Of a stretch of 64,000 bases of DNA, positions 2,893 to 53,347 are shown in pieces. The notes under the pieces were generated by a model, which searched no databases, had not been told where the DNA came from, and was given only the letters and a program-made list of their open reading frames with translations. The DNA lies in contig JAQGEQ010000258.1 in assembly GCA_034620365.1 (NCBI GenBank), positions 186,001-250,000 on the forward strand, written 5' to 3'. Each line of letters opens with the position of its first letter. The first letter of the stretch is position 1. Made by a program: the position numbers and the translations under genes. This stretch comes from Pegea sp. RAD2-039. Its lineage: Eukaryota > Chordata > Thaliacea > Salpida > Salpidae.

Positions 2893-2939
2893 CTGACGCT
2901 AGCAGATGTATTACTTCAATTGCTAGTAACATCTCCTCT

Positions 2940-5900
2940 ATGCCTTCATCTCATTTAACCATAGGTCATCTACCCACGATGCAGCAACACTTGCCTACCA
3001 TTCGTGACCCTGAATGGCTTAAAGTAGAGGTAAAGTTACTGAAGTATATTTGAAAAGATACTTTGTAACGATCTGATATATTCTCCAATTTCTAAATTTT
3101 TTTAAAAGTAGTTAGTAAGTAATTAAACTTTTTATCTTACTGCTTATCTAAAAAAGTTTTCAGTTTTAACTATTTGGTTTATTAACTACCAGTTTGTAGT
3201 TTACTTCAGCGTTTAATTAACTCAAAACATTTTTATATTAACTTTTGTAATTATTTAACATATGAGCAACTATTTTCTTATTTCCATTCAAAAAGTAAAT
3301 TTAACATCTGTATGCTTAGTTAGGTGGGGTAGTATTACCAAAGAGTTTTTTGTGTACCTAAACACCTAATCATCTCAACAGGAAACAAACTTCTAGTATT
3401 TGCTTTGAAATTGGCCCACTAATATTACTTTTCAGTTTATTTTCCTGATTAGTTTATTAATATTTGGAATTAAACTTTGTATCATAAGTAACCAGTCTGT
3501 AGCTAGTTTCATTTTGAAAATATATTTGAAATTTTGAAAACTTGATCAGTGATATGTTGATGCCACTGAGTCCTACTTAGTTGTTAGTATCTACCCTCAA
3601 TATGATGAAATCATAACAGTTTTACTGCTTGCCTTACATTTAATGAAAGGTTTAAATCAATCATTATCAGATAATTTCCCAGTCTCATTTAAATAGAATC
3701 TCTACTAATTTCTTGCATTGAATAACCGTTAAAAGGTCTCACAGCTAAACTCTTTTAGAGCTTTTAATTTTAATTATTTTTTGAAATAATACCATTTTCA
3801 GGTATGCCGGGAGTTTCAGCGTGGAATGTGTAAAAGAACTGATGATTGCCGGTATGCTCATCCTGAAAAGCATATACAAGTGAATGATGGCAAAGTAATA
3901 GCTTGCTTTGATGCCCTTAAGGTGAGATATTTCACATTTACTTAAATTTCCTTAGGCACTTAGAAAACTATTTTATTTCATCTCAATAATGACCAACTCT
4001 ATCAGATGATGAATGATTAGAACAAATAGAAAACTTGTTAACATTGTGCTTAAAATTTTGGCAGTCACTTTTTTCTTAGCTTTATTTTATGATCAACTTA
4101 AAAATTTAATCTTTTGTGATTTAAAATTGAAATGTGCAGTTTTAGTACAAATTTAGAAAAATAATTTTGAAAATGAAAAATGCTGTAGACAATTAAACCT
4201 GTCAACCAGAATGGTTTCTATTTTTTGATTTAATCCAACATTTAATGCACATGATTGCTCTTCTATTATAATCTATTCTTTTCTCAACTATTTATTTCTA
4301 TGATTATTTTCAATATTGTTTTTATTGTACATCTTTCATTCACAATTTTCAACTCGTCAAATAGTTACAATATGGCGTTTATTTTTGTGAAATATATATT
4401 TTTTCTAATACTTTTTTAAGTATTGTTCTTATATTTTTCACATCTTTACCTAATCCAAGCTCACTATTTGGTATAAAGTTTATTTTAAATTAGTTTCAGA
4501 ATCTCAGCTATAAATAAACCCTTTAATGAACAAATAACAAAACTACTGTCTAAAAATTTGTTAAACAATAATTGATGAAAACCCTTTTAGTGTATTGTAA
4601 TGTTACTCAATTTTGTTTTTATAAGAGCTTTCAATTCTTTCGACAGCTTTGTAATCTTCATTAACAAAGAACATTTTGTCTCTGTCATTATTACTGAATA
4701 AAACTGTTCAAACTGATATCTTATCTTTCTTAGATTTCTCCACTGTTAATATTTACAAATTTTTTACTAATAAAAATAAAAGTTTAAATTCAAAATACTT
4801 CAAAACACTCTATTTTATCCTGTGCTAAATGTGAAATATATATTCTTTCATTTGTATTCTTTTAACTTTGATAGAACTTCTGATTTTATTTTATTTGTAG
4901 TAAACAGATTATATATCAGTTGATATCAAATTACTATTTGCTTAAATACAATTTGTTCAAATAGTAAATCTCAAGCTTACAGTTGATATTTCCTTGATAA
5001 ATTTACTTACTTTCAACTAACTTTTCAGATATCTGTTTAATTATAAGCAGTTGGTCAAAGAACTTGTTATGTAATTTTCTTTGAGCATATTTTAAATTGA
5101 TTCGAAATCTACTTTTAACAAAGTGCTGTGAGAGTTATTACAAAAAATGTTGATTTGCAACTCATCATCATAATGAGATTTATTAAGAGTGTAAATGTCA
5201 GACATTTCTTAAGCGTGACTAAGCCTGAAATATGAGTGAATTTCTTGGTTGATTAAAAAAAAAGTATAAAAATTATAAAATATCAATCATTTTTTCACAC
5301 ATTTTTAACAAAAGTTTATTTTAACAATATTTTTTTATTAATTAAATTCTTTTTTGTTTTGACAGCTTTTGTACATCAATTTAACTAGCTTTGAACAAAA
5401 AGAACCTTCAGTTTTTTATAGTCAAAACCGTTACTTATTTTTATCTATATTTAGCTTGTTTTTGAACTGTAATCAAAAAAAAAACTTCTTTTGTTCTGAT
5501 TATACTTTCTAATTATTATTATTGGTTTGAATTCAACAGTTTGGATAAATTATAAAAATGTTCAACTCTTTTTCTAAATTACATTTCATTTACAAAAGTA
5601 TTTCTTTTATTAATGATCAGCCATAAGAAGCTGTAATCACTTTTAGAAAATAATCTCTAAATGTTCAAGTAAATTTACATATTTCAATAACAAAGACAGT
5701 GTAGTCTTATTCAAGCCAGTGATTTTTACATATTTACTATATGATATGTTCATGTGCAGAAATCACTTAGGAATATCTGTAGTTGATGTTTGTTTAGAAC
5801 TGCAATAAATACTTGAAAATAGTAACTACACTAACTTAACAAGAGCCTTAAAACTCACAAAAGTATAAAGATTGAAAACATATGTAAGAAGCATCAGTAA

Positions 5901-14900: not shown

Positions 14901-17900
14901 ATTAAATTACTCTTCACTTTCCACTCTTATTTCTACTTTTCCGACTCAATTTCATAAATATTTCCTTCTAATCTTTCTCATCACCTCTAACCTGAAGTTA
15001 ACTTTACTTCTTGATTAACAGTTGTGTCACAATTATGATAAACCTTTCGTTTTCTGTCAGAAGTTTTTCTACTTTCAGCTAACATGCTTCTTTTACTTAC
15101 ACTTTCAAATAAAATTGCTGACTACTAAAATGATGTTAGTGTTTGAACTTTCACTTCAGTGCTGAAGTACTACCCTCTACTCTATTATAGTGACGCTACT
15201 TTACTCTGTATCCTAACAGAATATTCACTACTTATTTGCATCACGTACAATTTACATTTAATACCTCCCATTTTATGCTTCCTAAGAATAAATTTGAACC
15301 TGTAAACATACTTCAAATCAACAAACTCGAAATTGTTATGTTTAGTTTTTACTTTCATCAGCCTCTATTATCAACAACGTTTTTCTATTTTTTTATTTCA
15401 CTTAATCAAACTTTGTTCAAACAAGCGTGAATTTGTAAGTTGAATTATTTCGATATATTTCTAACTTCTAGTGATGTGTAAGTAGTAGTAATTGCCTTAA
15501 ATTTTGCTTTTAAAGTCATTACTAATATAAGTCAGACTTTAAAATGGTTGAATTTTCGTTTGTGTATTTATTTTAGTATTCATTACTAGTTTTAGGATAA
15601 AATTACTTAAAATGTCAATTCTAGTTATATTTTGTTCTTATTTTCCTTCTCAACATAATGAATAATGAAAAGTTATTCTAAAACTACAGTTTGTCAATAT
15701 TTCAACTTGTTCATATTCATATAACTTTACATTTTCATGTATATGTTCTTGTTAATTAAAAGTCAATAAAAATGTTTGCTAATTGAAAAACAACTGAACA
15801 AAGATTCTATATATAATCTTTTGAAAAATTAACTTTTTAGAAAATAAAGTAGCTTTAAACTGATATGTTTGAATTTTACCTTCAGGCACTGTTGGCTATT
15901 TAGTTGTTAGCTTTATTTTTTATCTGCATTTCAAACTTTATTCTATTCTTATTTGACTCTCAATTAAGTTTAAAATCTGTTCAATTTTATTTGCATATTT
16001 GTTACTCATTAATCAAGCAAAATTCTGCTGTATTCAGTTCTTTCCACGTAATTTGTTAGCTTAAAGTTAGAAGAAATTTTTTATTACTTTAGTTGATGAA
16101 TAGCTTATTGCTTTATCATCATTTTTGATTTTAGTTTGCTGATGTTACAGTACTTAGTCTTTTGATTTGTATAAGCTTATCTTTATTTGTGCTGTAAATA
16201 ATTCATTAATCTCTTACAGAATTGTTTTTAATTTGTTGATCTGTAGATGTTTTGTTTTAGATGAATTTAATTTATAACTGATTGCACTGAGGAAATAATA
16301 AGAAGTTAACTTTTACCTATTTTTAGGTTTTAAGTCAAAACTCTAAAATATTTCTAACTTTTACTACAAACCTGATCCCTCTTAAACTCAATTCAAACGT
16401 CCAGTTAATTTTTAATCCTCTAATTTTCAATCTTCATCCAGGGACGTTGCAACCGCGAATCGTGCAAATATCTACATCCTACTCATCTACTTAAGCAACA
16501 TCTTGAATTCGCTGGAAGACAAACTCTTATTAACAATCGTGCTATGTTGCAACAAATGCTTCCACCTCAATCAAACGTTGTACAAGCGCAAACACTGCCA
16601 CTTGGTGGCAGTATTGTTGGTTATGAGGTGAGCTACTATTTATGAAACTTCTAACTAGATTTATATTTAATAAACTATCTATTTACATATAAAACTATCT
16701 GGGCTTACAAAATGCAAAGCTGTAAGACTTGGTGTTATTTTAACTTAGCAGCTATGTAGTTTGTTTCTGTTTTATGCATGAAACCCAACTGCTGTAAACA
16801 GTCAATACTGCTTGACATTGCAACTGTTTTTGTTACATGTTGGCTGATCAATCGAGCATTTTAGTAGTCCATCCATCCATGATTCCTTCTTATTAATATA
16901 AGCAATTAAGTTAAACTTTTAATGTTTAGCTCCCCTGAAAATAAGAGCAGTTTTTGACCGGTTTTTACTAATTGTGTGAATAATTTTGTGTAATTAATAA
17001 CTAACTTTACTTTGATGTTTTCTAACTAGTGTTTTAGATATTTATTTTATTTCTTGTTTAATTGTTTTTAAATTTGTTTTTAAGCTTCATTATTTAGTAA
17101 AGAAATTAATTAATTAGATGTCATCATATCTAATATAATTCAAGCATCAGCTTGCAATACAACATCTTAAGTTTCATGTTTTGTGTGCTTTTTCCTGTTT
17201 CGTCATGTGACTGATTGATTGGCTGGTTGGCGATGTGATCTTTCTCGCTGTATCCACATATCCTACCCTCCTTGTACTACACTACTGCTACATATCGCCG
17301 CCGCTACTGCATCGCTATTTTGCTACATGCCGCCGCTCTGCACTTCAAATCTCTCCGCAAACAGCAAGTTGCTAGCGGTAATGCTCAGCCAATCACGAGC
17401 TTGCACACCAATATGTATGGTTTACCAGCAACAGCAGTTGGTGCAGGCAACCCCGCCACTTACAACGTGTTACCCTCAGCAGGTGCATTTCAATATCCAA
17501 GTAAATATTCTTTTTTTTATCTTTCTTCACGCTTTATTTGCAATACAATTTATGCACTATTTTAATGATACCATATATTTATGTATAAGACAGCTACTAG
17601 TTTTAAGTTCTTGCTTTAAACAGCTTTTTCTTGATTTTCGGCAACTTTGCTTGCAATAGTTGGTTTCTAAATAGATATTTGTCATAAAAATTTCTAATGG
17701 TTTTTAGTCGCTCATCTAAATGACAAGCTTCGGTTCTTTTTTAATTGATCCTTTTGCTAATTGGTTAGTTTAAGAAGCCTCCAGACTCACTTCCTTTTGA
17801 TTTATCAAATCTTCCCCCAAAATCTTAAAAAACATTTTGATTTGCTACACTTTGAAAAAAATGCTAAAAGCTTTAGTTTTTTTAAAGTTTTATGATAATA

Positions 17901-20900
17901 ACATTATAATCTCAGGATTTTTTTAGAATTTTAACAAATAGTCAAAGAATATTGAGAAATTCTGCGCAAAAAATGAATAAAATTAAAATAATTAATTTAA
18001 ACAAAATATTTTCATGTCATTTTATAAAGCTTTTTTGGTATTAAGTTGTTGCTTTTCGTTTTATGTAAATCTGTCTATAAAACTTTACATCTGATTCAGA
18101 AAGACCATAAAATCGCATGACTTAGTATCCATTTATGTCACCGTCAATAACTTAGTATTAAACCTTTTGCATTTGTCCCTTCAATACCTACTAATATGAA
18201 ATTCTGTCATATGCAAGTTACTATTTAGAGTTGAAAGTCAAGCCACTATTTAGATCATATGTTAGAGACCTGTTCCAAATATTTAATTACTGCCAAAATA
18301 TTTTAACAAGATTTATTTTTAAAGAACTTCTTTTTCTGACATTTACATATTTTCTGAATACATTTTCTAATATATCGATTAATATTTCATTTGTAATTTG
18401 AAAACACGTAAAAAATAAAAGTTGGCAAGAACAACAGCACTCAATTGCTGCGTTGTTTACAGATTTTCTGAATCCGGCTTTGGTTCCATTATACCAATTT
18501 GCTGCTGCACCAACAGCACCAACTCAGCTTTCACTGGCACCACACCACCACCACTCAGCATCATCTCAAATCGCTGCTATGTTACCAAGTGCAAGTGGGA
18601 TGAGAGCAGACAAATTAGAGGTGAAATGTTTTTTCTTCACTTAATCACAATACCTTGTATGAAAATATTTGGTCAAAATTGATTACCATCAAGTAGTAAT
18701 AACATGAAAAGGTTTTAATTAGTCAAATCACTCCTCATGTCTTTTATTATTACTAATTCAAGATGTTTCATTTTTCTTTTCTTCTCTGCTCTTTATTTGT
18801 TGCGACTTTTTCTCAAACTTACTTTACATGTTTTCAGTCAGTTACGCCAAAAATGGATTTTTCATTCTATTAAATGCTAATCATGTACTCTTCAATAAAA
18901 ATTCCTGTTAAGATCTCATGAGTTTTTACATTTGCAGAAACTTCATCTAAAGACCAACACTTAGATGTTTCATTTGCACATCACAGTGATTTATTTTCTA
19001 TTCAAAATCATAAAAGTACAATTGAAAATTGAAATAGTTTCTCGAACAGTTTTCAGCAAAGCTTTCATACAAAATTAATCCAATTTTCTATCTAGATATG
19101 TTTTATTTGTTGAATGTAAAAATTTAAGTTAAAAGCATTTAAGCGGAACAGAATCAACTGAACCCTATCCATATCGCCCTTCGGCGCTTGCCTTAGTTTT
19201 AACTTTGCTAAAAGCTAAAATTTTAGCCCTGAAACAAGCAAGCAGTGAGAGAAGTAAATAAGTGGAAGCTTCACGCTTTACCTGTTTTACCTAAAATTTG
19301 TTTCTTTATGAAACTTGGCTGGTTTTAAATGACAACTTTGTGAAAGTTTATTGTTTCTGCTTATTTTAAAAATTTTGTTACTTGTTGAATCAACTGGGTT
19401 GATTGTTTAGTGAAATCTTCATAATTAATTTCTGATCGTCTTGTAGTTTATAAATTCAGCTTTTATTAACATTTCTGTTTTAGCTGTTTGAGTCTTATGA
19501 CATTAGCTTGATTGTGTGTTCCAATAATAAATTATCTGTGGAATATGTTTATACTTCTTATACCAAACTTTTCCAATAATCATTTTTTTTGTTTCGAACT
19601 CATTAAATATTTATGCTTTATTGGTATCTTTTCAAATGATGAGTGGTTATTTCAAAACTTATACAAAATCCCAAAAAATCTTTTAAAACAGTTTTGGCCT
19701 AAAAATATATTTTCATATGCTGGCTAATGATTATCTTATTATTAGATTTCATCTTGTTCTTTGTTCAGCTTAATAAACAAACCTTGTAAATGTCAACATC
19801 CATAGATACACTTCTCTATTGACTTAAGTAAATTAATCATTTCAAATCATCGTCATTTCATAAAGCTTAAATGTCAATTTTTATTTTTCCAAATTGCTAT
19901 AGAATACAATTTTACAGTTTACTTTTTAATATAAACATTTTCTTTTTTGTTTTTGTAACATTTAAAATTGTCGATAATAACAGTGATATATATCTCTCCT
20001 TTTTTAGGTCTGCAGAGACTTTCAACGTGGTAATTGTACTCGTGGTGAGTTCGAATGTAGATATGGGCATCCTTCAGACCGTTCTATGATTGACCCAACT
20101 GACAACACAGTAACTGTTTGTATGGATTGTATTAAAGGTCGTTGTACACGAGAAAAGTGCAAATATTTTCATCCACCAGCTCATTTGCAGGTAAATATTG
20201 TTTATCAACTAACAATGAAGTCTTATTTAAATTTATAAAACAATTTAGTCTACCCTTTCCAATTTCCAATTACTTATTAAACCAATTATCAGGTGTATAT
20301 TTTGACATAATATCAGATTTATCAATTTATTCACCAAAAAATCCAATTAAATGATCTTCTTCCTTTAAAAAAAGGATGTAGTATCTGTTTTTGAAAGACA
20401 GATGTCACGATAATATCTATTTCTGCATTTAGGCTAAGATAAAAGCAGCTCTCAACCCAGCAGCTGCTTCTTTGATATCATCTCTTACCCCTACTATTAG
20501 CTCTCATCATGGAGTCATGGTAAGAGTCATTTCTATCTTGCTTCTTTTACATCTAGGGCAGCTTAAATAGTTTCATTAACTTCAATAATTGTTTAAGATA
20601 AACTTTCCTCTCTCTTGCATGTCAATCAATGTTCATAAATGTTCTGAATACATTGATTGTCATTAAATTACAATTAAATAATTTTATTAATTTCAATTTG
20701 GTGTCAATTCAATAAGCTGTAACCTTCAATATTATAAATGTTTATAATCTAAACAAGCTTTAACACTTCATTATTATTAATTTATTAGAACTTAAGTAAT
20801 CCTATTTTGAATATATTTTATTCATTAGGAAATCTTATTTCACTTAAATGATAATAAATGCATGGCATGTGAATTAAACTTCCAAAAATGGTTAATGCTT

Positions 20901-23900
20901 TAAAAAGAAAATTTTAATTTGCTGATTTTGTTTTTTTTTGTTTTTTTGCCCCTTCTTTTTCTGTTATCGCTCGCCTGTCGTCTGCTAACGCTTCAACATC
21001 TCTATGAACTGATCGAAATTGGCTCTGTTGTTTCAACTTCAACATCCATCTACCAAACCATCCTTGTCTGCTGCCTCTGTTCTTCATTCGTGCCACAAAC
21101 AACTGTCTGCTTTGCTCCTTGCACGCTTACCCCCTACCTACCTGCCTCCTACCTGCCGTTTATTTCTTCTGCTGCCGCCGCCGCTGCTGAAACCACCTCG
21201 AAATTGCAAAACCTCTTCACATATCTGTCTTCACTCGACAGTCTACTCAAAAAAGATTGCTGACGCTGGATGACGTGGTAATATAATTGCTTTTTGTTGT
21301 TCTTGTTGTTTTTTTGCTATATATATTTCATGTTATTTTTGTTTTCTTGCCAAATTGTGGTGTTGATTTACCGCTACTTTTTCTTTTCATGTAATATAAA
21401 ATTTTGAAATAGATTTAAGCTTGCTAGCATACGATAATAAATTCAGCTTACTTACAGCTATCAAAATTAGTTTCATCTAATTTTAGAGTATTCATCACGG
21501 CACTATCTAATTTGAATAATTTCATTTCTATGGTTTGAAGCAGTTAGTTGTTGATACAGTAGTTTCAACTTAGAAGTAATCAATTCGGAGACATTATTTT
21601 CATAATCTATAAAAATATTAATTTTTGTATAATTTTATTAACATCGCATAAGTATAAACAACATTTAACATTAACTTTCAATTTATTTGTAATCTTTTGA
21701 AGAAACAATTTCGTTGGTTATAGTTTTCTACTTAAGCTACAATTATTTACACATTTATAAAATTTATAATTATTGATCGATTACTAAAAAGCTAATCAAA
21801 TTACTTTGGGTGATATCTTATATTTATCTTATCTGAATTTTAACCTTTTATAAATCTTTTTATTCCCTTTTCATGATGCTTTCATTTTCAGTTGTCAAAT
21901 GGAAACACTTTAGGACAACCGCCAATGAAGAGACAAGTCATGGAATCATCAATCATCTCATCAAGTGGTCCATCACAAGCAGCTGGTTTACAAGCACCAT
22001 CACCAGTGGTTTCACATTCTGGTCCAGCTTCACTCGCTGCTTTGTATGGTTATCCAGGACTTTTACCTCAAGCGCCACTACAAACAGCAGCACCAACTTA
22101 CTACCAACAAGGTGATTTTCAACTTTTTTTATAAGTATTTGTGAGGCTGCCGCACATAAAAGAAACCTTCACAATACATAGCTTCAAACAAAACAGCTTT
22201 AAATGCCGTGGTGATCCGCACGTGTTTTGCTTTTATGTACTTGTGCTCTTAATCACGCCCTGTATTTACTGTGTACCCTGCCCTCTCTCTCTCTTTGGCT
22301 GCATTGGTCACGTTGTTTTGCTTCTCTCTATCTTTCAGCGGTGCCGATGTTTCAATTGTACGGCACAGGAGGTGCAAATGCTCTGTCGGCTACCGCATCC
22401 CAATCGGTTCCCAGTGCTCAGCTAGCTGCTCTGAATCTGCCCGCGATGCCAAGTACCAGCACTAGCTCAGCAGGCGTGAACAATTCAGCCGCCGCCGCTG
22501 CTGCTGCAGCTTCTTACGCCTTAATCGACGGTAGGAACCAGGTGAGGCAACAACAAAGAAAAATCTTTTGCAAATTAGATAATAATACTTGCTCCTTTAT
22601 AAGTAACCTTTCCTACTTAGATACTAATCCAACAGAGTTGTTTACAAGTCGTTGAGATTTTTGTCAAATAAAATGTTTAAAATGTTTATTGAATCTCATC
22701 AAACTGATTGATGTATTTTCAACTCTTCCACCAGCTTCAGCTTATTAACCTGCTTCATTGACTCTTAAACTTGTTATTCGACTAACTGCTTTGCAAAATC
22801 CGCTTGATGAGATTAGTTAAATGCATGTCTCAATCTACCACATCATGTTTTATTTAGATTTATATTCCTAGTCGATATCCATTTAAATTTGTTTGTTATC
22901 TACAACTAAATGAAGATTATTAATTTATCTAACTTATTTAAAGAAGATCATATAAAAGATTTGTTCTTGATAATTGATATTATAAAGTTCCTACTGTTTA
23001 TTTAATAACTAAAAACTTGATTATTATTGTTGTAAAATCTCTTGTGCTAGCTTAGTTTTAAAACTTGCTTCTTTCTAATAACCTTGCAAATACTTGATGC
23101 AAAATAACTACAGCTTACAAGCGATGAGTACATTGCCTCGAAAGTTGCTGCCATATCTGCCGACCAACAATACTCTAACAACAGTAGCAGTATCACAACC
23201 AGCAATACCACACTTGGTACCACTGCCTTAACCGTGTGTCGAGATTACCAGTCCGGCAAATGTGTCCGGCCTTATTGTCGCTTTGTACACGTACACAAAG
23301 GTACGGGTTGGGTTTGAGGCGGTGACCTTGCCAAACCTAACTATCGCTGACAGTTCCTTAGACTTTCATGCGTGTTATGCTGCTTAGTTTAAAGATATTT
23401 TCATGGCCGCCATTTGGATTGAAGCAATTGTTTTCATTCATTACTAGCTGGCAGCTAAATCTCTAATTTAGCTTTGTTTTAATCTCAGCGCCCTAACACA
23501 ATGTTTGTTTTTTTGTCACTTTATTGCTCCTTTTATACCTCCGAATTTGTTTGTGTATTTTTTAGTAGACTTAACATTAAAAAAAATTTAATCTGTCCAA
23601 TTAGTTACTAATTTGTATCTTTTTGGATATTAATTGATTTTACATATCTTGTTGTAATTATTTTTATGTGAAATATCTCAATTTATTTTATCGAAAAACT
23701 TTTTTAATAAACATTAATTCTGCAATTTTGTAAATATTGTCTGTTGGAATATTTTTTTAACTTGTCTAATTACTCATTTTGGTTTTTATAATCAAATCTA
23801 TCTTTTGTAATTGAGTCATTAATTACTTTTACCACAAAACTACTACAGAGAGATCGTATCCAATTAATTGATCAACTTAAATATAATTTTGTCTTGTAAC

Positions 23901-24500
23901 AAGCGCATGCTATGAGATGCTATGTAAATAGTTGATGTCGGCATCTTGCACCTCAATTCTAATTACTTTCAATTTGTAATTGATAAAAATCTGCTGTTCA
24001 GTTGCATTATCATCCTTTTGGTTTTCAACCACATTAACAACTCTTCAACCTGTTTGTTATTTTTCTTATTTGTTTACAGATTTTGTTGAAGTAAAAGATG
24101 ATAAGGTGACTGTGTGTCGTGATGCACTTCAAGGTAAATGCTCTTCTGCTGCTACTGCATGCTCTTTGTCATCACGAGCATATCTTTCACTTCATATTGT
24201 TCAAATCAATTCATAACTACTTTTCAATTTATTTCAGGTGTTTGTATGCGACCACAATGCAAATTTTATCATTTCCCCTCCTCCAACAACAAATTGATAA
24301 TGGATCCATTTCAAACACATGTCCCGGTCCATCATACTTCCCCAACCAGTCCATTTATCCCAGCAACAGTCGATGTGGTACCCGATATAAGAGGTACAAC
24401 TACAAATCAATCACCACAGTTTATGAATGTGCTCGACAACAATAGTGGGCTTGCTTCCCAGAACCAAACCTACACTCTAACTAGTGGTGGACCTCTTTGA
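2940..24500 (+). CDS. mbl: Muscleblind-like splicing regulator with six CCCH zinc fingers (12 coding exons)
   Basis: RNA-binding alternative-splicing regulator of the MBNL family, expected in nucleus and cytoplasm, binding YGCY RNA. Exons: 2893-3029 (first Met 2940), 3802-3921, 16442-16627, 17365-17500, 18463-18620, 20008-20190, 20433-20519, 21892-22111, 22339-22541, 23114-23300, 24080-24133, 24238-24500. All junctions are GT-AG and the phases agree, giving about 628 aa. Zinc fingers: ZnF1 C32-C40-C46-H50, ZnF2 C65-C73-C78-H82, ZnF3 C232-C240-C247-H251, ZnF4 C268-C276-C281-H285, ZnF5 C503-C511-C516-H520, ZnF6 C536-C544-C549-H553. Pairs 1 and 2 have the family signatures [16 protein letters not shown] and HPPAHLQAKIKAA. 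Exon 8 has an MKRQ motif at the place of the MBNL KRPLE nuclear-localisation segment. Exon 9 encodes an eight-Ala run. The frame is open upstream of Met 2940, so the true start may lie in an earlier exon. The identification is secure; exon usage is inferred. Confidence 0.93.
3922..16441 (+). other. 12.5 kb intron inside zinc finger 2 of muscleblind
   Basis: The intron separates the C65 half of ZnF2 (CFDALK) from its GRC...CKYLH half, phase 0, with a gtgaga donor and a tccag acceptor. I find no convincing exon inside. Open frames near 11.45, 12.88 and 15.24 kb are AT-rich and look random. A less AT-rich patch at about 13.64-14.30 kb contains a perfect palindromic cAMP-response-element match at 13733-13740. 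Confidence 0.75.
17281..17364 (+). promoter_or_regulatory. YGCY cluster and pyrimidine tract before muscleblind exon 4
   Basis: Nine YGCY tetramers (tgct, cgcc, cgct, tgcc) fall within 17281-17340, directly before the acceptor at 17363-17364, in otherwise AT-rich sequence. YGCY is the established MBNL recognition motif, and binding upstream of an exon usually favours skipping. I infer an autoregulatory splicing silencer for exon 17365-17500, perhaps together with exon 18463-18620, because the two together are 294 nt and keep frame. Confidence 0.45.
21121..21241 (+). promoter_or_regulatory. YGCY-rich intronic splicing element in muscleblind
   Basis: A GC-enriched, C/T-rich intron segment with nine YGCY tetramers in 21121-21190, including an unbroken gctgccgccgccgctgctg run. 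It ends at an acceptor (ctcgacag) at 21240-21241. Similar YGCT/YGCC words are scattered back to about 20950. It resembles the region before exon 17365 in composition and position, which suggests feedback control by the protein itself. Confidence 0.45.
21242..21277 (+). other. Candidate 36-nt cassette microexon of muscleblind
   Basis: Between an acceptor (cgacag) and a donor (gtaata) lies a 36-nt open segment encoding [12 protein letters not shown]. It starts and ends in phase 0, matching the flanking exons (20519, phase 0 end; 21892, phase 0 start), so it can be included or skipped without a frameshift. Its QKRLL is reminiscent of the basic KR motif beside the regulated nuclear-localisation segment of vertebrate MBNL. 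No transcript evidence is visible, so it is left out of the main model. Confidence 0.4.
22139..22338 (+). other. Less AT-rich intron segment before muscleblind exon 9
   Basis: This intron, between exons 21892-22111 and 22339-22541, is C/T-rich, with a short CT repeat near 22284-22294 and about seven scattered YGCY words. They are less dense than in the two clusters upstream. It ends in a strong pyrimidine tract and tttcag acceptor. Regulatory use is possible but weaker than for the other two segments. Confidence 0.3.
23234..24275 (+). other. Third (extra) CCCH zinc-finger pair of muscleblind
   Basis: Three exons encode a tandem CCCH pair with the muscleblind layout. ZnF5 is [15 protein letters not shown] then RFVH (C-x7-C-x4-C-x3-H). 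A linker with [10 protein letters not shown] resembles the ENGRV/NDGKV linker of canonical pairs. ZnF6 is [15 protein letters not shown] then KFYH (same spacing). Phases 0-1-1 join without a break. The Pro after the zinc-binding His, common in the other fingers, is absent, and the QRG of odd fingers is QSG. This pair lies after an LTSDEY segment that resembles the last residues of vertebrate MBNL (LTSHKY). Confidence 0.85.
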
Positions 24501-40622: not shown

Positions 40623-41249
40623 TTACTTACTAACATATCTCTTCTCAAAAATGATTTTTATAATATGTATTGCAGCAATTACAAAGACAAGAATGACAAT
40701 ATGAGTATTTTCTGGAGAAGGTGTAATAACTTGATGAATACCACCTAAAGTACATATTACTACCTGAATAATACTATATCTCATAGAGGTAACAATCCAA
40801 TTAATTCCAGTAAAACGCTTATCAAGTTTGAATGTAAATAAAACAGCGAATCCATTAAAGAGTACTGTATTGAAAATAGCCACTAAAATAAAATAGTGAA
40901 ACCTGTGGTAAATCAAAATAGTCATCACCAACATTGCTATGCTAAGACCACCAATTACATAAGTTGCAAGTCCTAATAAAAGCAAAATATATTACTTGCG
41001 ACTTCAAATTAATTGATTTGAATGACTTTCTAATCATAATGTTTATTATTGAGCAAATTTCTTTAAACTGTTATCTTTTAAGTAAGTTTAAAGACTACAT
41101 ACATAGTTATAAAACTTAGAAAATTATGGTCACAAACCTCTTATTGATCTTACATAAGCAAAATCAATAGAACCAGTTTTTTTAGAGCCACTATTCTGAT
41201 TGACCATAGAAATAGTATCAGGAACATCAACTGTATAATTGTCTTCCAT
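40623..41249 (-). CDS. Four-TM MARVEL-like membrane protein A, two exons
   Basis: Exons 41249-41138 and 40972-40623, phase 1 junction, 153 aa. The cytosolic N-terminus of about 30 residues is followed by DFAYVRSIRG and four hydrophobic segments at roughly residues 37-59, 64-84, 94-114 and 122-142. The size, four-helix layout and a charged residue entering helix 1 fit the MARVEL family (CMTM/MAL-like proteins of membrane apposition and trafficking). The match is by architecture rather than a diagnostic motif; another small tetraspan family is possible. A paralogue lies 410 bp upstream on the same strand with the same intron position and phase. Confidence 0.65.
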
Positions 41250-41658
41250 TTTCTGGCGCAGTATTTATTTTTGTTACCCTTAACCCTAAAAGCAATTAAT
41301 TACATTAATCGATCTGAGTAAGAATATTAGTTTAAAGAAATTTTAATGATAGAAAAATAAAATCAGTTTCAATTGCAGAGCTTTATACATATTTTCAGCA
41401 GTTTTTGCAATAAATTTATCAATTAATAAGAGTCATGATTAAGATAGATAGATTGATTAAAAAAAAACTTGCAAGGTACAAAAATTAAATTCATAATTGA
41501 TTGAAAAAACGTTCACATGCACGAAATTATAGTTCATGAAACAAAAATATTTACAGTTTTCAGATAATACGGAAAAAAATATAAGCACCGAAAGAGTAGA
41601 TAAAAGATTAAAAATACGAAACTATAAATTGTACCATCTAAGCTTTTATCATAAAAAT

Positions 41659-42473
41659 CTAATTATTAGTCATATTTTTGCTTCTAAACTCTTGAAATTG
41701 AAAATAAAATTTGACTCCGTGTAAAATAAAATCAAGAAAACCCAAAATAACTGCAACCACTCCAGCAACATTCAGCGAACTAGCAGCCAAAATACAAGAG
41801 GCTATGAACCAAAAAACTGCTTGAATAACTATATTAAGAAGCAATGTCATCGGCCAATTAATGATGGTAATCTTATCATTAAAACGAAATGCAAAAATAA
41901 AGATGAAAAAAAGATAGAGTATCAAACTAGTTATCCCAGTTGATAAAAGCATGCCATAGTTCCCTGATGCAGGTATCAAAATAAAAAGTATAACCAAACT
42001 GAGAAGAACAAAAGCCAGATTTGTGATTCCTATAAGAAAAAATGAACTTTTAATTTACAATAAAAATAAAACCTATAAAGAAAATATTATTTTACTATTA
42101 GTCTATAATTATATAAAATTAGATTAATAAAAAATACTTTAATCTTATATAGTATACCAAAAGCAAATAATAATAACAAATACCTTATATGGTAACTAGT
42201 TCTTATAGATAACATTTAACATTTACAAGTGAATATATTTAGCTTCACATCATTTGTAGGTTTTATAGTAGGAAATATATACAATAAATGAAATATCTTA
42301 ACATATAAACAAAAAAAACCTTGCAATGATTTAATGTATGAAAGATCCATAGTGAGACAACAGATCTGTTTTCTATTTGGAATAGGTTCAGTTGTTGGTT
42401 GATAAGGACTACTTTGAGAAATCATGGAAGTATCCACTGTAAAGTCTTCATCTGCCTTGTCAACTTCTTGCAT
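41659..42473 (-). CDS. Four-TM MARVEL-like membrane protein B, two exons
   Basis: Exons 42473-42320 and 42029-41659, phase 1 junction, 174 aa. The N-terminal tail is longer (about 45 residues, rich in Asp/Glu/Ser/Pro) than in protein A. LSYIKSLQG then sits where A has FAYVRSIRG, and the intron interrupts the same Gly codon. Four hydrophobic segments follow, with FNDKITIINW between TM2 and TM3 (A has LDKRFTGINW). The C-terminus is polar (FQEFRSKNMTNN). Shared structure, order and the INW motif show that A and B arose by tandem duplication, followed by considerable divergence. MARVEL assignment is inferred from architecture. Confidence 0.65.
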
Positions 42474-48200: not shown

Positions 48201-49364
48201 CATGAATAACTTTGTCTTCCACTCTGACAGTAAGAACAAAGTCACCAGGTTTACTGATACTCTCGCGAACCAGAAAGCTTCCATTTTTGCCCTTTTCGAG
48301 CAAAATAGCTTCAGCCTGTTTACCTGAAGTGTTTCCATGAAACCATCTAAAATTCATTATACTCATCTGTCAGTCAAAAACTTTGAAAATAAAAAACCTT
48401 TCTGATGTTGGATCAGCACACGGTAGAGGAAATTTTAGTTCAATTACTTCACCATTACTTTCACGCAACTGGCCATGATTTTCATTGTAAAATTGCACAA
48501 GTTCAGTTAAAGATGCAAATTTTTCGCCACCATATAAATCATAGAAGTCTTCTGTGCTTTGAATCTTAATATGTGTAACATCATTTTCCCTCCTGTGTAT
48601 AATTGATAAACATAAAATGTTGAGACAAATAATTACTTTCTTCAAATAAAAAAAAAACAATTTTAAAGAATTCTGTATAATTACTGCGATTTTATAAAAT
48701 TTCAATTTGAGTAGTCACGCTACTTAATATAAAAATTGACATAATTTAAGTTAAAATTTCAACTTTTACATTTTAAATTTAGTCTAAAGTTGTGAATATT
48801 AGGCTGAGACTCGTAGGCCGAAGTAGTAGATATAAGGAAGTCAATATTTATACTTCCTCAGTGCCTTGCGAAAATAATTTCATTATGGTGGAGAACAGCG
48901 TGTGCTGAACTACCTTCAGTCTTTAGATCAGATGTTTATTAACACAGCCCCAGTGACCTAGGTTAGTGACCCAGAAGCCAACAAATTGTAGGTTTTATTT
49001 CAGATTTTCTCTTTCATAAGCTGACAAGACACATTTACTGGGATGTTATTGTTGTAAAGTTTTAGAGTTGAAGAAGTTGTAAATAGATTAAATGGGATTT
49101 TGTTGAAGTTTATACTCATGTTATAATTGACTACAGTTATAAGAAACATACCTAACAGATATCGTAAAATCACCAGGCTTGCTTGTACTTGGTCTTGCAA
49201 GAAAGCTACCATGTATTCCTCTTTCCATTAATAACCGCTCTGCTTGTGCACCAGTTATATTTGGATGAAACCATCTAAATAAATGAAAGTCAACTTACAG
49301 TACAACCAATATATACAAATTCATAACAATAAATATCAGGTTACCTTTTTGATACTGATGTCAT
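45227..49364 (-). CDS. PTPN11: SHP-2 / corkscrew tyrosine phosphatase, 15 exons
   Basis: Cytosolic protein-tyrosine phosphatase acting downstream of receptor tyrosine kinases, generally promoting Ras/MAPK signalling. Minus-strand exons: 49364-49345, 49274-49152, 48592-48398, 48346-48184, 47584-47333, 47282-47186, 47136-47057, 46995-46840, 46767-46636, 46580-46467, 46390-46282, 46061-45907, 45728-45672, 45497-45415, 45359-45227. All phases agree; 622 aa (human 593). N-SH2 (~6-105) has [15 protein letters not shown] and [13 protein letters not shown]2 (~112-215) has [12 protein letters not shown] and GSFLVRES. The PTP domain (~245-520) has [18 protein letters not shown], the WPDHG loop with Asp 423, the [13 protein letters not shown] loop with catalytic Cys 457, and the QRSGMVQT Q-loop. 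Two tail tyrosines are in YxN context (PEYVN ~539, IYENT ~597), matching the Grb2-binding tail sites of vertebrate SHP-2. Confidence 0.97.
48785..48995. repeat. Less AT-rich inserted element in an SHP-2 intron
   Basis: Lies in the intron between the two N-SH2 exons. It is clearly more GC-rich and complex than the flanking poly-A/T-like intron sequence, with a short inverted pair (ggaagtc...tacttcc) near its left part. It resembles the remains of a SINE or other short repeat, but I see no second copy or clear pol III boxes. Confidence 0.25.
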
Positions 49365-52016
49365 TTATGCAATGGAACAAATTTGAGCTTAATGAAAAAG
49401 TGTTCAAAGATTTTATCAAATGTGATATTCTAGTAAAACACTAAATACTTTAAGAATAATAAAAAGTCATTATTTAACATTAATTGTAATATAATACTTG
49501 TCCTATCACTCAAAATGAACAAAACACAATTCAATTTTATAATTCAACTTTACAAATAAGTTTAATTCTTAAACTATAAAATTTTATTCAATTTTTTTTA
49601 TCAATTTCAACAATTTAATAACAAAAGTTGATAATAAATATTGCTCAGAATAATAAAATTAAAATATTTTATCATATAATTAAATTTATAATAAATTGCT
49701 ATTTATAATCAAACTCACAAAGGCATAAACAAAATATGAAAATTACTCAATTAATTAAGTAATTAGTTTTCTCAACATCTTTGCATAACATGGTAACAAA
49801 TAAGTTTAAAGATTTATATATACAAACAATTGTAAAAAAATAACTAAATAAAAAACTGCTTATATATAAAATTATTACAGCTTTATTAAGAAAGATTATA
49901 ATTGATTTATTTCAAAATATTCCTAAATTTATGAAGTTTTTAAGTAAAAACAAATAATTTGACAAGTTTAATAAAATAGTTGAAACAATTTTAGTTGATT
50001 TCAAAACAAATTAAAATTTTATTCATTTTAATCAACAACAAAAACATGCTGTCAGTAAACATTTAGTAGAATTAACTAAAATCATTTAAGAAACAGAATC
50101 AAATAAAAGTTAGGAAGTTTAATAAACCTTTAAAAACACTGAGATATAAAAATACTTGAAAAGAAATTTTATCTATTCTATGTAATTTAAAAAAAAGAAG
50201 AATCCAACCAAAAATAAGTATAAAAATAAATAAGAACAGAAGTAGAAGTTTTTTAAACCTTTATTTATTTTTGTTATTGAAATTAAATAAAACAAATACT
50301 GATAAAATATTGAATCAACTTTTCACCAATTACATTTCTAAAGAAGGTTTTCTGTACACTTAACATTTATCTAAAGGTTAGTAATTACGTAAGAATATAT
50401 CATTAATCTCTAAAATATTTACTACAAGGAATCTGCTAAAAATATTTATCAAATTCATGACAAAATTATATTAGAGGGAAAACTATTAAAGATGCTACGC
50501 ATGAATGGCGTGTCATAATTTCAAAACAACAATTATTTGACTGAAAAATGCATTAGTGAAAGACGAGCTTGCTATTAATCTAGAGAAAATGCGATTGCTA
50601 AAAACAATTTTACAACTCTTATGCAATTTAAAAAGAATCATGTAATTATAATTACAATAAAATATCGACTTTGAATTTGAAATAGAACAGATTTAATATA
50701 ACTAGACGGCAAAATCAAGCAGATAAAGACAATGCAGAGAAAGATTGAATATTTCTTAGAAAATGGTAATCAGTGAGTATCCTACAAAATCTAGCTAATA
50801 ATAGCACTAATTAGTTAAGATATAAAGTGCTGAAAAGTTGACTTAATCTAAAAATATTTCTCCTGTTTTTGCTAATTCTTGTAAAGTAGTTGATAATTTA
50901 TATTGTTTTATGGCACTACTTTATTATTCATTATCAATTTATAGTATTATTTAACGGTATTGAGCAGTGATCTACACATTTTTATGTTTAATTTTTTTGA
51001 TCAATATGATCTTGATCAATTTTTTGAGTAATATGCGACTTGCAAGAACTTTTTTAGAATATTTAGTTATATACCGAAAGCTTCACAAGGCAGTGTTTTG
51101 TTGATTCTTAAACTGTATGTAGGTGAAAAGAAACTGGCGGTTTAAATTAAGAAACGATACTTGTAGCAAGAGTTTTTGTATCATTAGGCCCTGTGATATA
51201 ATTGAATTGTATGATATTACAATATTTTACGTCATATGTAAATGACTTATCGAGTTTTGCTTGATTGCTCTACTAGAGCCGGACGTGGGGGTGCGCCTGT
51301 TTTTCAGCTGTTAGGAGACTTGAGGTGGTGGACGGTATCGAGTCGGAAGCTCTGCACACTCTATTCAGGTCGAGTGTTTTCGCAAAAATGTTGCTTTATA
51401 ATTCCATCTGGTTGGCCATGTTCGCTGTTAGAGCTGTTGAATTTGACCGTGGTAATGTTTGTGTTGTATAACGTTGTTATTATTCGCCTTTTACAATTGA
51501 GTAAAGCTCTCCTAAAGAGTTTCTTTTTTCATTACAGGCCCTGAACTAAACTCTTAGATATCTTTGATAAAACTTTTTTTTTTACTCTCAAGTCTTAAAT
51601 CAGCTTACTTTTACTTTGTAAAAATGCTTTTTAACATATCAGCCCACATTCAACAAGATTGTCTGCTTCACTTTTAGTGAAATGGATCAGTTTAGGAAGA
51701 TACTTCATCCACTAGTTTAAAAAGGTAGCTTTTTGCTAAATTAGTAAAAATTTTCAAATGTGAATTAATTTGAAAATACTAATTATTGAAGTTTCTAATG
51801 CTTAGTACTAAATTAATTTGTTAAAATATAATTTTGTTGGTTAATGTATATAAGATAAGATATGGATGCAAGATAAAGACTAAGATTTTTTTATATATAA
51901 TATACTGTTTTAAAAAGCCATAATGCATGCCCAAAAAGTATACAATTACGTAACAAACGAAGGTCAATTTGTAGAAATTAAGCACATAAAATTCTTGTTA
52001 TTGTTACGCAGTTAAG
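49365..52016. other. Divergent intergenic region between SHP-2 and UBE2R
   Basis: The two genes are transcribed away from each other, so both promoters should be here. The left 1.9 kb is extremely AT-rich. A GC-richer block at 51241-51545, about 0.5-0.8 kb upstream of the UBE2R start, could be a 5' leader exon, promoter element or repeat. Its 100-codon frame shows no family resemblance. Confidence 0.4.
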
Positions 52017-53347
52017 ATGGCATTACCAAAAGCCAGCTCCGCAAAACTTTTAGCTAAAGAATTACAAAATTTACAAGAAGAACCCATGGAAGGATTTCGA
52101 ATAGAGTTGGTTGATGAAAGAAATTTGTATGATTGGCAAGTAGCAATTTTTGGACCTCCCGGTACTTTATACGAAGGAGGTTACTTTAAGGCAGTTATTC
52201 GATTTCCTGGCGATTACCCTTTTTCTCCACCAACTTTTAAGTTTGTTTCTAGAATGTGGCACCCTAACGTTTTTTCAAACGGAGAGGTGATCTTTTTAAA
52301 AAAAAAATTATACCAAAGAAAGTTTATTCATGATAGATTTATTTACAGAATAATCTTAAAACATTTTTATATGTAATTCTTAAACTAAAAAGATTTAACA
52401 TACAGTATTCTTCATTACTTTAATAAATTTTAAAAACATATCTCTATCTCAATTAGTTATAATTTTCATCTGTTCTTGTGCAGTACAAATATTTCAATTT
52501 TTAACTCAACAGGTTTGTATTTCTATCCTACATCCACCAGTTACAGATGTGACGAGTGGTGAGCTGCCACAGGAACGTTGGAACCCGACACAAAACGTTC
52601 GAACCATCCTTATGAGTGTAATCTCTTTGTTAAATGAACCTAACACATCTTCACCCGCGAATGTAGATGCCTCAGTGATGTTTCGTGAATGGAAGGAAAG
52701 TAAAAATACTAGATATAAAGAATATGTTTTGAGAGAGGTAGATCTATTTTACTTATTTTCTTTCTTTTAGGCTAAACTTATCACAAATATGTTGGTTAAT
52801 TTATATTAGATTATTAAAATTTTCACATACTAATAAACTTGTTATATTTTTATTAAGCTATTATTTCAAACTCTAAACTAAATAGATAAAACTTAGAAAA
52901 AAAATTTAATTATTTACTTACAACTTTTTTCTTTATCTAGTTTCTTCAACATTGATCAAAATGTTGACTTACTATTATAGTTTTTAATGAAAATTATAAC
53001 TGATATATTTAAAATGAACTCTAGCAGGTTAAATATATGATTTTGATAAAAATAGCTTTTTTAGACAAAGTTTTATGAATGCTCTGTCGAATTACTTTTA
53101 GAAAATAAATAAACTCTGTTCATTGTCTTCCATGTAGCTATAGAAGATTTAATTTATGAATATTTTGTTGTTGACTGATTAATAGGTAGAAGCCACGAAA
53201 GATGACGCTCTTCGTGATGGTATTACTGTACCAACCACAGTAGATGACTATTGCGTGAAAACTATTGAAAAACCACAACCCAGCTTTACAAGCACCTTTG
53301 ATTTTGATGAATCTATGGATTCAGATATTGATGACGACCAATATTAA
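52017..53347 (+). CDS. UBE2R2: CDC34/UBE2R-type ubiquitin-conjugating enzyme E2, three exons
   Basis: E2 that works with SCF cullin-RING ligases, passing ubiquitin from its active-site Cys to substrates or growing Lys48 chains. Exons 52017-52286, 52513-52737, 53186-53347, all phase 0, 218 aa (human UBE2R2 238). The UBC fold covers about residues 8-170: [56 protein letters not shown], then VCISILHPP with catalytic Cys 92. The acidic-loop insertion characteristic of CDC34/UBE2R is present ([17 protein letters not shown]), followed by [20 protein letters not shown]. The tail keeps [12 protein letters not shown] and ends in a short acidic patch ([12 protein letters not shown]) rather than the long acidic tail of vertebrate proteins. 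A near-identical second copy of exon 3 lies at 59926-60087. Confidence 0.95.

Follow-up and report, generated by a model that had tools for sequence, protein, structure and literature searches.

Muscleblind (MBNL) genes encode regulators of RNA splicing, with CCCH zinc fingers arranged in pairs (tandem zinc fingers, TZFs). The gene described here lies on the + strand at positions 2893-24500 of the window, a 64-kb part of one contig of Pegea sp. RAD2-039 (assembly GCA_034620365.1, contig JAQGEQ010000258.1, positions 186,001 to 250,000), and is a muscleblind gene with a third, diverged finger pair (TZF3) in addition to TZF1 and TZF2. Vertebrate MBNL1/2/3 (structures 3d2q, 3d2s, 3d2n and 2rpp) share with it a split TZF1, a TZF2, KR motifs (one of them here in a candidate exon) and the finger sequence itself, and TZF3 matches both of their pairs. 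They differ in having four fingers only and in finger spacing: MBNL fingers 1 and 3 are CX7CX6CX3H and fingers 2 and 4 CX7CX4CX3H (PMC4176163), while the middle spacers of fingers 1, 3 and 5 of the present gene are x5, x6 and x4.

The fly gene is among the closest described systems. A preliminary description of this stretch had credited fly members of the family with two fingers, a count that is outdated: the mbl genes of flies and other insects encode a vertebrate-like TZF2 (exon 5 in the fly), and an earlier fly transcript, RF or MblF, is cited there as carrying another TZF with 32% identity to human TZF2 (Irion 2012, PMC3315501). To judge from the part of that paper available, the fly gene appears to have three pairs in total, without one protein described that bears all three. 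MblF thus resembles the present locus as an additional, poorly conserved TZF in a muscleblind gene, TZF3 being diverged as well (25 of 58 alignment columns identical to 3d2q). The difference is that MblF is described as a two-TZF protein, with no six-finger isoform mentioned in the available text of PMC3315501, and the two are compared by description only.

Planarians have further invertebrate MBNL genes, mbnl-1 and mbnl-like-1 to -3, with one or two pairs and with GCU-type motifs for the tested one-pair proteins; the extra planarian genes bear single pairs, and the available portion of the report mentions no third pair (PMC4978528). In the main text of a 2023 cross-phylum survey of MBNL genes, as far as it was accessible, neither "TZF3" nor "third TZF" appears and the pairs spoken of are TZF1 and TZF2 (PMC10773944). 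No six-finger or third-pair muscleblind was found in the open-licence literature, in searches some of which were diluted by unrelated papers; the phrase "six zinc fingers" in the literature found refers to proteins other than muscleblind.

A third pair of CCCH fingers

Splice sites together with the joined reading frame give a gene of 12 exons and 11 GT-AG introns. The joined frame is free of stops, is open from 2895 and encodes 643 residues (628 from its first Met) up to a TGA that ends at 24500. It contains six CCCH fingers, with spacings, from finger 1 to finger 6, of x7/x5/x3, x7/x4/x3, x7/x6/x3, x7/x4/x3, x7/x4/x3 and x7/x4/x3. All six may occur together in one protein.

TZF3 is encoded by three in-phase exons, as the preliminary description had proposed, and the three junctions it gave are exact. 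The finger-5 exon (23114-23300, phase 0) follows the donor CAG|gtgagg after 22541 and the acceptor acag|CTTACA; the 54-base second exon (24080-24133, phase 1), with the linker and the start of finger 6, is joined through AAAG|gtacgg and ttacag|ATTTTG; and the last coding exon (24238-24500, phase 1), with the rest of finger 6, a tail and the TGA stop, is joined through CAAG|gtaaat and ttcag|GTGTTT. The G+C content of these exons is 0.37-0.47, compared with 0.27-0.34 in their introns. Both fingers have the predicted form C-x7-C-x4-C-x3-H and are connected by a linker that contains VKDDKVTVC. All eight zinc ligands are intact, and the aromatic residue two positions after the third Cys is present in both fingers (CRF in finger 5, CKF in finger 6). 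Finger 5 is CX7CX4CX3H where the first-finger MBNL pattern is CX7CX6CX3H, and we therefore call TZF3 MBNL-like rather than a standard MBNL pair.

Profile and structure-database searches place the pair close to muscleblind. The joined TZF3 scores 44.1 bits with the Pfam profile zf-CCCH_10 (cut-off 27), so that the hidden Markov model search suggested for it came out in its favour; TZF2 of the same gene scores 97.1 bits with zf-CCCH_10 and 11 bits with zf-CCCH_3. A phmmer search of joined TZF3 against 177,635 distinct PDB sequences returned 13 matches up to E 1. The top six were 2e5s (3.4e-12), 3d2q (9.9e-12), 5u6l (1.2e-11), 3d2n (9.3e-10), 5u6h (1.2e-9) and 2rpp (1.8e-8), and five of these are labelled Muscleblind-like, the sixth, 2e5s, having an opaque label; we take it to be MBNL2. 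The remaining seven matches were to CPSF4, the 30-kDa CPSF subunit, at E 0.017 or worse. TZF2 of the gene finds the same structures at far lower E-values (2e5s 9.8e-37; MBNL1 3d2q 2.4e-33), and TZF3 is therefore clearly diverged. Against the human pairs its identity is the figure already given for MBNL1 TZF2 (3d2q) and 24 of 57 columns for 3d2n.

The genome searches covered the whole assembly (105.7 Mb, 387 contigs). With zf-CCCH_10, four of nine matches exceeded the cut-off, and these four were fingers of the gene's own TZF1 and TZF2; taken unjoined, exon by exon, TZF3 scored 21.2, 17.9 and 16.8 bits, all below it. With TZF3 itself as query (E up to 10), a search that scores only its best candidates, the five matches were its own three exons, TZF2 and TZF1. 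TZF2 as query gave three matches, all within this gene, which is the only muscleblind gene found in the assembly. Ten 10-kb samples of the assembly have a G+C content of 27.9%. Its TTAGGG arrays account for 76 overlapping matches on 3 contigs; searches for a TTAGG array and for the nematode SL1 gave 0 matches each, and COX1 was looked for in the assembly and not found.

We consider it likely that this is a muscleblind gene in which 3' exons, themselves probably optional, supply one more tandem CCCH pair besides TZF1 and TZF2. We regard the product as a variant form of an established protein and not as a new kind. Several points weigh against this reading. Joined TZF3 also passes the cut-off of a second profile, zf-CCCH_3 (32.6 versus 31 bits). 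Among the gene's 12 acceptors, that at 23114 is the weakest, with a leave-one-out score of -2.8 and 7 of 17 pyrimidines where the other 11 score from 1.6 to 11.2, which could mean that TZF3 is rarely used; the scoring draws on just 12 sites from a single gene. The middle spacer of finger 5 is x4 and not x6 as in MBNL fingers 1 and 3, and Ser and Pro stand at the positions of MBNL1 Arg190 and Gly196, so TZF3 may bind RNA weakly or not at all. No relative by which purifying selection could be shown was found in the viral and prokaryote collections scanned.

Membership of the 3' exons in the muscleblind gene

The divergence of the pair (38% identical to the gene's own TZF2 and 39% to its TZF1 in MAFFT alignments) and its score with zf-CCCH_3 are also what would be seen if the last three exons formed a short gene of their own, next to muscleblind, for a CCCH protein with two fingers. 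We regard this as very improbable, and the reading of 23114-24500 as a separate gene was rejected for want of a Met, for the stop before it and for the fit in phase. No Met is encoded in the finger-5 exon, and a TAA in its frame starts 9 bases 5' of it, so that it needs an upstream exon ending in phase 0. The muscleblind donor at 22541 is in phase with it and, with a score of 12.8, is the best of the gene's 11 donors; it lies just 572 bases away, an interval in which tiny first exons were not exhaustively ruled out. TZF3 is also nearer to the gene's own pairs than to the genome's other gene with a zf-CCCH_3 match. The first residues of the finger-5 exon, LTSDEY, resemble the ends of vertebrate MBNL proteins; a literature search with the peptides found nothing.

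Splicing of the third pair

With the 3' exons assigned to the muscleblind gene, the weakness of acceptor 23114, the lowest of the 12, suggests that TZF3 is probably optional through splicing. The two acceptors that follow, at 24080 and 24238, are strong (11.2 and 7.6). A form of the protein that lacks TZF3 would be possible because read-through of the donor at 22541 adds 37 further codons and then a stop. A form with TZF1 and TZF3 would likewise be possible, since the TZF2 exon (20008-20190) has 183 bases and can be skipped in frame.

The same features would also suit an either/or arrangement, in which TZF2 and TZF3 never occur in one protein and splicing picks one of them as the second pair, leaving proteins with four or two fingers. 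The TZF2 exon is in phase 0 at both ends and can be lost without a frameshift, acceptor 23114 is weak, and the fly isoforms with two pairs bear either the exon 5 pair or the MblF pair, in the available account (PMC3315501). The frame nevertheless passes through both pairs without any skipping, and the splice sites of the TZF2 exon are good (acceptor 9.2, donor 9.6); a strict choice between the two pairs is, in our estimate, unlikely.

Self-regulation of TZF3 splicing by muscleblind is not supported. YGCY motifs in the three introns concerned number 6 in 22542-23113 (6.3 expected; 334 of 500 dinucleotide shuffles reach the count), 10 in 23301-24079 (9.2 expected; 205 of 500) and 4 in 24134-24237 (2.2 expected; 50 of 500). 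Mononucleotide shuffles reach these counts in 42, 28 and 6 of 500 cases, respectively, and several other introns are likewise raised by that measure; the dinucleotide shuffle was taken as the stricter control.

Proposed RNA recognition by the third pair

In MBNL1 the GC step is intercalated by two aromatic residues, Phe202 and Tyr236, and Arg186, Arg190, Arg195 and Arg201 are also named in the available text (PMC9780971). In fingers 5 and 6 each of these two aromatic positions is occupied by Phe. Three of the four arginines are conserved in finger 5, the exception being Ser for Arg190, and of Gly191 and Gly196 it retains the former. The preliminary description had taken the loss of the QRG and HP residues as a sign of altered specificity. 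This argument loses most of its force: the intercalating aromatics and most of the nearby arginines are kept, and the loss of QRG touches finger 5 only. It is weak evidence on specificity because finger 4, in this gene as in MBNL1, reads IKG and is likewise without QRG.

The changes in finger 5, namely x4, Ser for Arg190, Pro for Gly196 and no HP after the finger, could instead mark a decaying pair, non-functional or turned to protein binding, in which RNA binding has been lost. This we judge rather improbable, as none of the eight zinc ligands has been lost, the two intercalating aromatic positions and the majority of the Arg/Lys positions are intact, and the reading frame is open.

We favour a TZF3 that would fold like an MBNL pair and, since the Phe positions and most of the arginines are kept, would be expected to bind GC steps (YGCY-like RNA) through the conserved Phe and Arg/Lys pocket, possibly more weakly. 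Splicing would decide which proteins carry it: the weak acceptor at 23114 would give a protein without TZF3, and skipping of the TZF2 exon a TZF1-TZF3 form. The extra pair would mainly lengthen the reach of the protein to spaced or structured sites and add less to affinity on a short site. Reach is favoured over affinity because MBNL1 binds RNAs with two, three and four GC steps about equally, according to the part of PMC3103431 available.

Origin and relatives of the third pair

By BLAST TZF3 scores 54.3 bits against the gene's own TZF2, 52.4 against TZF1 and 30.0 against a CCCH gene on another contig (C10), which was rejected as its source on these scores. The genome search with zf-CCCH_3 had two matches, both below the cut-off: the gene on C10 (22.5 bits) and the finger-5 exon alone (17.1 bits). 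We presume the C10 gene to be CPSF4-like. As to the two muscleblind pairs, identities and BLAST scores are near equal. The intron in finger 6 (DALQ|G, phase 1) is offset by a single base from that in TZF1 (DALK|G, phase 0), a hint that TZF1 may be the parent of TZF3.

Scans of viral contigs for relatives gave 1 and 33 pattern matches, and a prokaryote collection 41, with none confirmed in either; this absence is expected because the scanned collections are viral and prokaryotic. It is conceivable, though doubtful, that TZF3 has long belonged to the protostome muscleblind gene, is shared with fly MblF and has been overlooked because it lies in optional 3' exons.

The muscleblind body and a candidate self-regulated exon

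The nine exons upstream of TZF3 carry the hallmarks of the family. The first (2893-3029), identified by its splice sites, open frame and LEV-box likeness, has the first in-frame Met and an N-terminal RDPEWLKVE box that precedes finger 1; it starts at an AG acceptor, so a further exon 5' of it is likely. The box resembles the RD/KWL or LEV box named for MBNL proteins in the available text of PMC5041496. The second exon (3802-3921) has finger 1 (C-x7-C-x5-C-x3-H, 3802-3862) and the beginning of finger 2, ending at DALK| in phase 0. The rest of finger 2 follows a 12,520-base intron, in an exon placed by splice sites and frame (16442-16627). Two linker exons, both resting on open frame and splice sites, lead from TZF1 to TZF2 (17365-17500 and 18463-18620, the second directly preceding TZF2), and fingers 3 and 4 lie whole in the TZF2 exon at 20008-20190. 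Further open frame and splice sites give the next exon (20433-20519), an exon with a KR motif (MKRQVMESS) and ...APTYYQQ (21892-22111), and an Ala-rich exon that ends in ALIDGRNQ and has the top-scoring donor of the gene (22339-22541).

Two MBNL-type pairs are therefore present besides TZF3, TZF2 by its PDB E-values and the reading frame, and TZF1 by 47% identity to TZF2 over 68 positions. Their exon layout is that of insects and vertebrates, with a large intron interrupting TZF1 and the whole of TZF2 in a single exon, as the available part of PMC3315501 describes. Fingers 2, 3 and 4 match the MBNL spacing and finger 1 has x5 rather than x6, which does not bar membership because internal finger spacing varies across homologs (PMC5041496, as far as available).

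In bilaterian MBNL genes, Ambulacraria excepted, two neighbouring exons bear KR motifs; the first of the two is alternatively spliced and, in worm and vertebrates, is repressed by the MBNL protein itself, according to the accessible text of PMC10773944. A 36-base cassette exon at 21242-21277 (+ strand, phase 0/0), outside the 12-exon model and proposed by analogy with the KR pair and from a YGCY cluster 5' of it, is the sole KR-bearing sequence of three stop-free phase-0 candidates in its intron. The candidates were limited to 24-240 bases with GT[AG]A donors and were sought after the motif had been read about, so the result is a fit and not a blind test. The densest 200-base YGCY stretches of the window, at 21001-21300, have 14 motifs against a mean of 1.45 over 1,277 stretches, and this cluster lies directly 5' of the candidate exon and overlaps it; the 300 bases 5' of the exon (20942-21241) hold 19 motifs. 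The intron as a whole has 30 YGCY motifs versus 19.4 in dinucleotide shuffles, a count reached by 0 of 500, and is the only one of the 11 introns of which this is so. The candidate at 21242-21277 looks like the nuclear-localisation exon that is conserved and self-regulated in MBNL genes.

A second YGCY cluster, 11 motifs in 200 bases (17165-17364), stands directly 5' of the linker exon 17365-17500, which may also be muscleblind-regulated because the cluster adjoins it. The whole intron before that exon has 13 motifs, not above the 14.2 of dinucleotide shuffles.

Other genes in the window

A ubiquitin-conjugating enzyme gene, presumably of the UBE2R/CDC34 type, is present at 51990-52770 on the + strand as two open frames (Pfam UQ_con, E 2.1e-27 and 1e-12). 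On the - strand, an open frame at 48370-48714 includes the last part of an SH2 domain (E 8.7e-7), and two adjacent open frames at 40623-42054 are membrane-protein-like, one with a MARVEL match of 27.2 bits, below the 32.8 cut-off, and the other with no Pfam match.

Significance for the muscleblind family

Loss of MBNL function drives myotonic dystrophy, and the number of fingers an MBNL protein needs, together with the way spaced YGCY sites are read, is an active question. A natural six-finger form would test whether an extra pair alters affinity, reach or target choice. If TZF3 is shared with fly MblF, the textbook four-finger layout would not be the family's fullest form. If it is ancient, the complete layout of the family would have six fingers, from which splicing or loss would take away two or four; muscleblind would then read RNA with two, four or six fingers, their number tuned by splicing.

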